Of a stretch of DNA of 64,000 bases, positions 138 through 1,517 are shown piece by piece. The first letter of the stretch is position 1. Every line of letters starts with the position of its first letter. The position numbers were made by a program, and so were the translations under genes. The stretch is from Paraconexibacter algicola (GTDB lineage: Bacteria > Actinomycetota > Thermoleophilia > Solirubrobacterales > Solirubrobacteraceae): NCBI RefSeq assembly GCF_003044185.1, contig NZ_PYYB01000005.1, forward strand, positions 1-64,000, written 5' to 3'. A model generated the notes under the pieces. That model saw only the letters and a program-made list of their open reading frames with translations, was not told where the DNA came from and ran no database searches.

Positions 138-163
138 TGGCGTGGACCCCGTGCGTGTTGTCA
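138..163. repeat. IS3 element terminal inverted repeat, orfB side
   Basis: The sequence begins TGGCGTGGACCCCG and ends GTGTTGTCAC. It matches the reverse complement of 1489-1517 over the outer 14 bases and again over the inner GTGTTG block, with a 2-3 base difference in the middle. The orfB stop codon (161-163) lies inside it. Confidence 0.75.
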
Positions 164-1044
164 CTTAGGCCGCTGGGATAGCTGGTTGTCGTGATCCTGC
201 CAGGTGCCGGCGACCTGCGCCGGCGTCTTGTAGGCGAGCCCGGAGTGGGGCCGGTGGTGGTAGGCCTCGATGTAGGCGCCGATCTTCGCTCGGGCTTCGT
301 CGAGGGTCTCGAACTCCTCGCGCCAGACGCAGCGGAGCTTGAGCTTGCCGAACCAGGACTCGATACCCCATGCGGGGCACAGGTGAACGCCTGGGACTCC
401 GGGTCGCGGTAGCCGCCACGGCGGTGCGTGATCTCGTGCTGCGCGAGCCGCGCGCGGAACCGCTTGCTCGTGAACGCGGTCCCGTTGTCCGTGCCGAGCG
501 TGAGCGTTCCCGCGGGAACGCCCCGGGTGGCGACGGCGGCGTCGATGACGGCGATCGCCTCGTCGGCGCGACAGCGAACGTCCAAGGCCCAGCCGGTGAT
601 CTCCCGGGTGCAGCAGTCGATCATCGCGTTGAGGTAGGTCCAGCCGTGCTCGGCGACCCAGATCGAGGTCATGTCCAGGTGCCAGAGCTCGTCTGGGCGG
701 GTGACCTCGAAGTAGCCCGGGCGCTTGCGGCGGCCCTCGGAGCGCTTGGGCTGCAGCAACCGGTGCTCACGCATCAGCCGCTGCACCCGCTTGCGATTGA
801 CCGGCTGCTCGTTCAGGCGCTGCGCCGTCAGAGCAGCGACCATGCGGGTGCCGTCGGTCGGGTTCTCCCGCGCGACCTCGAGCACCGCGCGGTCGACCTC
901 GTCCAGCGGCCGGCGCTCACCTTTCGGCGGTCGGGTCGGCCGTCGGTAGATCGCCTGCCGGCTGATCTGCGCGACCCTCGCGACCAGGGCGGCGGGGCGG
1001 CCTTGCGCGACGAACTCGCGGGAACGGGCGACGCGCATGCTCAC
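161..1044 (-). pseudogene. IS3-family transposase OrfB (DDE integrase), frameshifted
   Basis: The intact frame starts at GTG 1044, overlapping the native orfA stop as GTGA. It runs through an HTH_21-like N-terminus (AQISRQAIYRRPTRPP) and an rve integrase core with the first Asp in WHLDMTSIW and the second in LGTDNGTAFTS. At residue context RDPESQAF a 20-bp insert (364-383) shifts the frame. Beyond it the proper frame resumes with IESWFGKLKLRCVWREEFET, which contains the catalytic Glu, and ends QLSQRPK at 161. Without the insert the protein would be 287 residues, normal for this family. As it stands, translation passes into unrelated sequence and runs out of the element to a stop at 55, so the Glu of the DDE triad is lost. 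Confidence 0.85.
364..383 (+). repeat. 20-bp hairpin insert, copy 2 (in orfB)
   Basis: The insert is TACCCCATGCGGGGCACAGG on the plus strand. It has the form CCCC-N4-GGGG followed by CACAGG. Deleting exactly these 20 bases restores the OrfB frame (QAF-IESWF), which defines its limits. It shares 15 of 20 positions with the insert at 1070-1089, which lies in the opposite orientation; nearly all differences fall in the 4-base loop. Confidence 0.85.
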
Positions 1045-1360
1045 TCCGATCCCCGCAAGAGTTCCCCCGCCTGTGCCCCGAACGGGGTGCGACCTCGACC
1101 TCCATCGTCTTGCGCCCGAGCGCGCGTTCGAGCTTGGACACCTGCGAACGCAGCTCGTCCAGCTCGGTGCGCTCAGCCTTGGCCGACAGACGCTGCGCGC
1201 CGGCCGCGAGGAACTGCTCACGCCAACGGCGCAGCAGCGTCTCGGAGATGTCGTGCTCGCGGCACAGCTCCGCGATCGTCTTCTGGCCCCGCAGCGACGC
1301 GAGCACGAGCTCGGTCTTTTGCTGCGCGGTGAACTTCCGGTACTTGCGGGTCTCGCCCAT
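1041..1360 (-). pseudogene. IS3-family transposase OrfA, frameshifted near its 3' end
   Basis: The start is ATG 1360, preceded by a good GGAGG ribosome site 5 bases upstream. The product begins MGETRKYRKFTAQQKTELVL and carries the HTH_Tnp_1 segment (TIAELCREHDISETLLRRWR) followed by a heptad-like coiled coil (ELDELRSQVSKLERAL). A 20-bp insert at 1070-1089 breaks the last codons. Taking it out gives MEVEVAGELLRGSE and a TGA at 1041-1043 that overlaps the orfB GTG, the normal IS3 arrangement, for a 99-residue protein. In the present sequence the frame instead runs on to a stop at 917, adding an unrelated tail. The DNA-binding part is intact, so a truncated product could still act as a repressor of the element. 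Confidence 0.85.
1070..1089 (-). repeat. 20-bp hairpin insert, copy 1 (in orfA)
   Basis: On the minus strand the insert reads CACCCCGTTCGGGGCACAGG. Removing these 20 bases restores the native orfA end (EVEV-AGELLRGSE) and the orfA/orfB overlap. It is the same CCCC-N4-GGGG-CACAGG unit as at 364-383 with a different loop (GTTC instead of ATGC), in the reverse orientation within the element. Confidence 0.85.
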
Positions 1361-1488
1361 CAGGTCCTCCTCGGAGGGGTGTCGGGCGGCCATGCTGCGA
1401 GGTGCGCCGGACGGGATCGCCACTCGGCTCGGCCTACGGCCTCGCCTTCGTGACGACCCCGTCCGGGGGCTCATTCCTCACAGCTCAG

Positions 1489-1517
1489 GTGTCAACACGA
1501 TCTCGGGGTCCACGCCA
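1489..1517. repeat. IS3 element terminal inverted repeat, orfA side
   Basis: Read outward to inward on the minus strand it is TGGCGTGGACCCCG, then AGAT, then CGTGTTGACAC. It pairs with 138-163 with a short indel. It marks the outer edge of the element next to the Tn3-type fragment. Confidence 0.75.

Follow-up and report, generated by a model that had tools for sequence, protein, structure and literature searches.

Probable copies of a 20-bp palindromic insertion unit in an IS3-family element of Paraconexibacter algicola

Short tagged palindromes, some of them located within genes, are described in PMC3733652, in the accessible text of which the word Actinobacteria is absent. The same source covers the CGTC-tagged repetitive extragenic palindromic (REP) repeats, including RPE-4, RPE-6, and dRS3, for which no dedicated transposase is known; how such short palindromes spread without a transposase is left open there. 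Other related systems are the GTAG-tagged REPs, the Rickettsia palindromic elements, and the yeast mitochondrial GC clusters. Here we analyzed a stretch of 64,000 nucleotides of P. algicola (contig NZ_PYYB01000005.1, positions 1 to 64,000; hereafter the window), in which an IS3-family insertion sequence (IS; 138..1517), with orfA and orfB on the minus strand, bears two 20-bp inserts. These inserts probably belong to a family of very short, non-coding palindromic units that insert into DNA; the unit is 20 bp here and ca. 18–21 bp in relatives. The unit consists of a pyrimidine-A, a C:G stem of 3–5 bp, an (R)TNC-type loop of 3–5 nt, and an unpaired tail, CACASG. A clean gain of 20–21 bp was observed at four sites (two in the IS, one in typA, and one in hemA), and the unit recurs in several genomes of the family, in both orientations, in genes, in a ribosomal intron, and in other palindromes.

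Both inserts had been reported in a first-pass annotation made from the letters alone, and both sequences were found at the positions and on the strands given there. One, TACCCC-ATGC-GGGGCACAGG, lies in orfB (364..383, plus strand) and scored 33.5 bits with our sequence model R1; the other, CACCCC-GTTC-GGGGCACAGG, lies near the end of orfA (1070..1089, minus strand) and scored 35.7 bits. Aligned to related Solirubrobacter stretches, the window is longer by exactly 20 bases at either site. The insert at 364–383 is absent from L011, L012, L018, L019, and L026, and the insert at 1070–1089 is absent from L011, L012, L018, and L019; these four span both sites, L026 spans the orfB site only, and L018 and L019 bear an identical strain number. 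The annotation had considered that intact IS3 relatives might carry the same 20 bases; the five stretches lack them at every covered site. Within the window's own family, the matching stretch was 22 bases shorter than the query over the orfA site in G114 and 17 bases shorter over the orfB site in G139, lengths only being compared. The limits of the inserts had been called precise. Their length, exactly 20 by alignment, stood, but their register did not, because neighbouring letters repeat and the edges slide by one or two bases (by eye, 1070–1089 fits three registers and 364–383 fits two).

Throughout the window, the two inserts, which are both rows of the alignment behind model R1, were the only strong matches to this model, and the next best match scored 11.3 bits. 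With two mismatches allowed, the pattern was found twice in the window, compared with 2.09 expected from shuffles, so it is no rarer than chance. Therefore, the weight of the argument rests on the clean gaps of 20 bp and the copies found in other genomes.

The pattern was searched for in relatives, as had been proposed. Among 146 genomes of the family, five contained exact matches to a 19-letter pattern, 12 in total (two in the home genome, G000, four in G088, four in G098, one in G105, and one in G111), compared with one hit for the reversed control. When three mismatches were allowed, G088, G091, G098, and G111 exceeded their controls. Stretches of six genomes yielded 28 units (G000, 2; G088, 7; G098, 7; G091, 7; G111, 4; G105, 1), 24 of which are 20 bp, two 19 bp, and two 21 bp. 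Twenty-one of the 28 were aligned, and their mean identity was 92%. CCCC, the T and C of the loop, and GGGG are invariant in this set, and the foot read on the other strand is CSTGTG except in three units with one altered letter. The first-pass annotation had proposed a free N4 loop, which was not confirmed: the aligned units read R-T-N-C (4 nt), and other units have loops of 3 and 5 nt. We also fetched 20 weaker hits of model R1 (twelve of 21 bp, four of 18 bp, two of 20 bp, one of 19 bp, and one of 17 bp), each individually less certain. Their stems are 3–5 bp long, and the stem of the aligned units is CCCC/GGGG. These results suggest a family of ca. 18–21-bp units with a pyrimidine-A, a short C:G stem, an (R)TNC-type loop, and a CACASG tail. 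The very small dispersed insertion unit first proposed is thus supported by the recurrence of the same unit and loop words in family genomes and by the clean gains in typA and hemA.

A class-wide scan with a 17-letter pattern detected 5 of 399 genomes, one of which (G162, with a differing tail) is outside the family and unproven. In viral contigs, the exact pattern occurred in 26 stretches, the loops and flanks of which were unrelated by eye, and these were taken as chance. When 12-mers were counted in stretches of G088 and G098, the words listed were all compositional. Two G098 units (L117 5401–5450 and L125 9430–9463) have common wider flanks, with caaggacg before and GAAATGTGC after; therefore, a longer repeat may include the unit in G098. 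Short tandem hairpins were seen in G111 (L146 2494–2560 and L145 3885–3938); they have the form CAYACCCC..GGGG, end in CACAGG, and run on into CAGG repeats.

The unit resembles the CGTC-tagged REP repeats in its short hairpin, a loop of 4–5 nt, a one-sided unpaired tag with a short tail opposite, and the presence of some copies in genes (PMC3733652). However, its foot on the other strand, CSTGTG, is not CGTC, TGTC, or CCTC, the nearest tag form, TGTC, being one letter off the unit's TGTG; its C:G stem of 3–5 bp contrasts with a REP stem of 8–9 bp starting with A and T; and its tail is TR in place of CCA (PMC3733652). Thus, the loop length of these repeats is present, whereas their tag and their 8–9-bp stem are absent. 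The GTAG-tagged REPs, which occur with REP-associated tyrosine transposases (RAYTs), are likewise short hairpins, mostly near gene ends and in some cases within genes, e.g., uvrD (PMC3733652). It is improbable, if conceivable, that the units are RAYT-type REP sequences moved by an IS200/IS605-like Y1 (HUH) transposase, which would recognise the hairpin and its unpaired foot. The short hairpin with a one-sided unpaired foot and the sites at gene ends and within genes are as in REPs, and the carrier G091 possesses a Y1 transposase. However, PF01797 was matched in G091 alone among seven carriers and was unmatched in the other six (G000, G088, G098, G105, G106, and G111), with the reservation that the drafts are incomplete (three of these six are 58–89% complete) and that G106 ranks among the carriers because of a form with a 3-nt loop. 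In addition, the unit is without the GTAG tag, and its stem is mostly 4 bp, compared with 5–13 bp in these REPs (PMC3733652).

Rickettsia palindromic elements are, like the unit, palindromic DNA inside conserved protein genes with the frame preserved (PMC3767692 and PMC10969869). Frame-keeping palindromic inserts were found in typA of G111 and in the UvrD and FolD genes of G091, but not in the window, where the inserts destroy the frame. The unit occurs in another phylum, in a host family near Solirubrobacter, unlike the elements of Rickettsia and Wolbachia, and it is 18–21 bp long (52 bp where an outer palindrome encloses it), whereas those elements are 100–150 bp (PMC3767692). Because its tag and stem (PMC3733652) and its size (PMC3767692) do not agree with theirs, the unit falls outside both REP super-families and the Rickettsia palindromic elements. 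The yeast mitochondrial GC clusters are also small GC-rich palindromic units, sporadic, non-autonomous, and able to merge; however, they are organellar, the best studied is 42 nt, and the likeness is drawn from their description (PMC4478555). As for miniature inverted-repeat transposable elements, which have a target duplication and share terminal inverted repeats with a parent transposon, no parent was encountered, and any target duplication is 1 bp at most. The literature searched, which left most subscription journals outside coverage, contained no recognisable description of the unit. The initial statement that no such family is described therefore holds for the unit itself, but the general kind is described in the accessible part of PMC3733652. 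We would place the unit among the short palindromic insertion elements as a form of its own, one that presumably behaves as REPs and Rickettsia palindromic elements do.

Outside the IS, clean gains were observed in two conserved genes. In typA of G111, a 20-bp unit lies between CACGGCA and CCGGCT, and the frame is kept because one extra T follows shortly after it; the insert amounts to 7 residues relative to solved BipA structures. This unit is missing from 18 of 18 other aligned typA genes. Six other typA loci comprise four that were read and lack the unit, one (G093) that is deleted there, and one (G112) that was unread at the site. In hemA of G098 (glutamyl-tRNA reductase domain, Pfam GlutR_N), the ATG start codon is interrupted by a 21-bp unit, which leaves GTG. 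Of 13 relatives, G104 and G107 have the empty site, matching at every base; for the other 11, no clean alignment was obtained at this position. Seven units of G091 lie within open frames, which were picked by conserved sequence around the units: CTP synthase, a UvrD-type helicase, FolD, the end of SucD, an Lhr helicase (unit antisense), the end of ClpB, and a hydrolase. By alignment, UvrD gains 17 residues at the unit and FolD has 26 residues compared with 3, each with a larger in-frame insert around the unit. Five of these seven units are inside a 52-bp palindrome beginning with CCGATC. The units in genes are read through in different frames and on both strands, which speaks for insertion at the DNA level, and insertions within genes seem to be retained if they alter the length by a multiple of three overall. 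Some candidates were rejected as proof of gain: the ClpB and SucD alignments end before the unit, the CTP synthase alignment breaks at the site, and the relatives of the FolD start in G088 (L257) are too diverged to place the insert. A frame test by G+C content at third codon positions was dropped since the strands were not distinguishable.

Units were also found outside protein genes. In the 23S rRNA gene of G098, a group I intron has a loop-like insertion that contains one of them; this intron matched at 42.7 bits (E 5e-9), below the Rfam cut-off of 50, which another intron in the same gene passes. The gene (L122 15334–18989) has one group I intron above the cut-off and two weaker matches. 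One unit is 12 bases 5′ of a ZTP riboswitch, one immediately follows a stop codon (by eye), and 5 of the 7 units in G088 are within CATG-centred palindromes, one of which is imperfect. Such positions near gene ends and in palindrome arrays would agree with a hairpin that functions primarily as RNA or DNA (terminator, mRNA end, or protein site) and is selected at gene ends, the in-gene copies being rare accidents. We consider this explanation quite unlikely, as copies with clean gain are present in the IS, several conserved genes, and the group I intron, and they occur in either orientation and in more than one frame. These features, together with the non-coding sites, agree with the early suggestion that the unit acts as DNA.

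Of 30 selected units that bear the usual tail, 29 are flanked by a purine on the left and a pyrimidine on the right; over all units and candidates, 35 of 48 are so flanked, the background being 0.267. The 30-unit set omits L124, L131–L137, L145, L146, and L149 from the 28 units and L243–L246, L249, L254, and L259 from the weaker candidates. Thus, a check for systematic variation, suggested at the outset, gave a regular loop (R-T-N-C) and mostly purine^pyrimidine flanks, but with 13 exceptions among the 48. In 22 of these 30 units, the first base is the same as the base flanking the unit on the right (ca. 16 expected from base counts, by hand), which hints at a 1-bp target duplication. At sites outside palindromes, no clear preference for hairpins or hairpin loops as targets was found. 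The fixed length and the possible 1-bp duplication would be compatible with footprints or end fragments of a larger element that inserts and then leaves, as the first-pass annotation had envisaged. However, no longer element with such ends was encountered, and the 52-bp form in G091 is a unit within an outer palindrome; this origin is therefore unsupported and appears very unlikely.

If the inserts are copies of a mobile palindromic unit, the unit would spread as DNA that is copied to new sites, and the copying enzyme would act in trans with scant target choice beyond purine^pyrimidine, like that of REP or Rickettsia palindromic elements. The IS may have acquired its units in a different host, one richer in them, before it entered the home genome, since this genome has neither further units nor CATG palindromes.

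Several observations weigh against the insertion of such a unit. The home genome has no further convincing unit beyond the two copies: a pattern scan gave two exact hits and one 1-mismatch hit, compared with 3 control hits, and model R1 at E ≤ 0.1 found the two window inserts only. The first-pass annotation had held that a lack of further copies in this genome would count against its proposal, and such a lack is what was found. Across the family, the 23 places scoring at least 29 bits with model R1 are all in the six unit genomes, and 21 of them are its own training rows; at E ≤ 0.1 the model matches 114 of 146 genomes, mostly by chance. All carriers except the home genome are drafts. The hairpins of the two inserts are not unusually stable (z-scores of −1.25 and −0.92 as DNA). 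Among the 13 sites without purine^pyrimidine flanks, nine are from the 28 units and four from the 20 weaker candidates; all nine have a CACACG/CACGCG tail, and the true end of units with this tail may be further on. GrpE was rejected as proof of gain, its alignment passing through the unit without a gap. The obvious candidate for the mobilising enzyme, a Y1 transposase, was found in one of the seven carriers. On the other hand, the chance of an assembly or sequencing error at the hairpins is negligible: the inserts are known from assembled sequence, but the same sequence is present in several genomes, and 20 specific bases would not recur by sequencing error.

With regard to the palindromic unit itself, we tentatively raise the possibility of a separate class of mobile DNA, an 18–21-bp hairpin among the smallest spreading elements known, which would use purine^pyrimidine sites and a non-Y1 enzyme and be able to nest in a second hairpin system, the perfect 24-bp CATG-centred palindromes found in these genera. 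Owing to the shortness of the unit, its target and junction are readable base by base along with the unit itself, conserved genes offer clean empty sites, and most carriers are without the usual suspect enzyme. Therefore, an enzyme search by co-occurrence and a movement test in culture are practical. Gains of ca. 20 bp are also seen here to alter proteins and start codons in Actinobacteria.

The IS that bears the inserts has identical 14-bp inverted repeats at its ends (138–151 and 1504–1517) and, on the minus strand, the Pfam domains HTH_Tnp_1, HTH_21, and rve. orfA up to its insert (1091..1360, minus strand) matched HTH_Tnp_1 (2.6e-15), and the part of orfB that is upstream of the orfB insert and contains the integrase core (385..1038, minus strand) matched rve (1.1e-20) and HTH_21 (2.3e-7). 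All features of IS3 membership, namely the orfA helix-turn-helix, the orfB integrase core, and the terminal inverted repeats, are thus present. This part of orfB shows 80% protein identity with Solirubrobacter soli, and the Solirubrobacter relatives of the IS reach ca. 80% at best. Since each 20-bp insert shifts the reading frame, the element is probably dead. The home genome has a single copy, six further matches being fragments of 31–49 bp. Nothing matched the IS among plasmids, and no donor copy was found in the family genomes. Beside the IS, a reading frame at 1488–2135 of the window contains a DUF4158 domain, which we take to be part of Tn3-type transposases, and is perhaps a broken gene of that type.

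The CATG-centred palindromes are a system of their own. They are 24 bp long and frequently tandem at 24–25 bp, and their arms are unrelated. In the loci examined, ten of which had been fetched for high score, the distinct CATG-centred 24-mers comprised 39 with no arm mismatch, 8 with one, 8 with two, 19 with three, and 103 with four, and thirteen other palindromic centres gave 0–2 perfect 24-mers each. At E ≤ 0.01, a palindrome model matched 46 of the 146 genomes in the family, most of the matches being in three genera; the home genome was unmatched at this threshold. In 17 palindrome rows, which were chosen for palindromy, 99.4% of cells pair, with no G-U. Tandem arrays, in which most palindromes are perfect and imperfect copies are few, were observed at L111 4832–4903, L113 9003–9099, L115 18886–18981, L142 9453–9524, L098 12068–12115, L105 14783–14830, and L283–L292; by eye, several arrays are located between convergent genes. 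Seven near-palindromes like GSTGTATNACCATGGTNATACASC, perhaps the operator of a regulator, were seen, all in G098 (L111 2133, L115 12556, L118 11463, L123 3226, L124 16328, L128 17364, and L130 16179).
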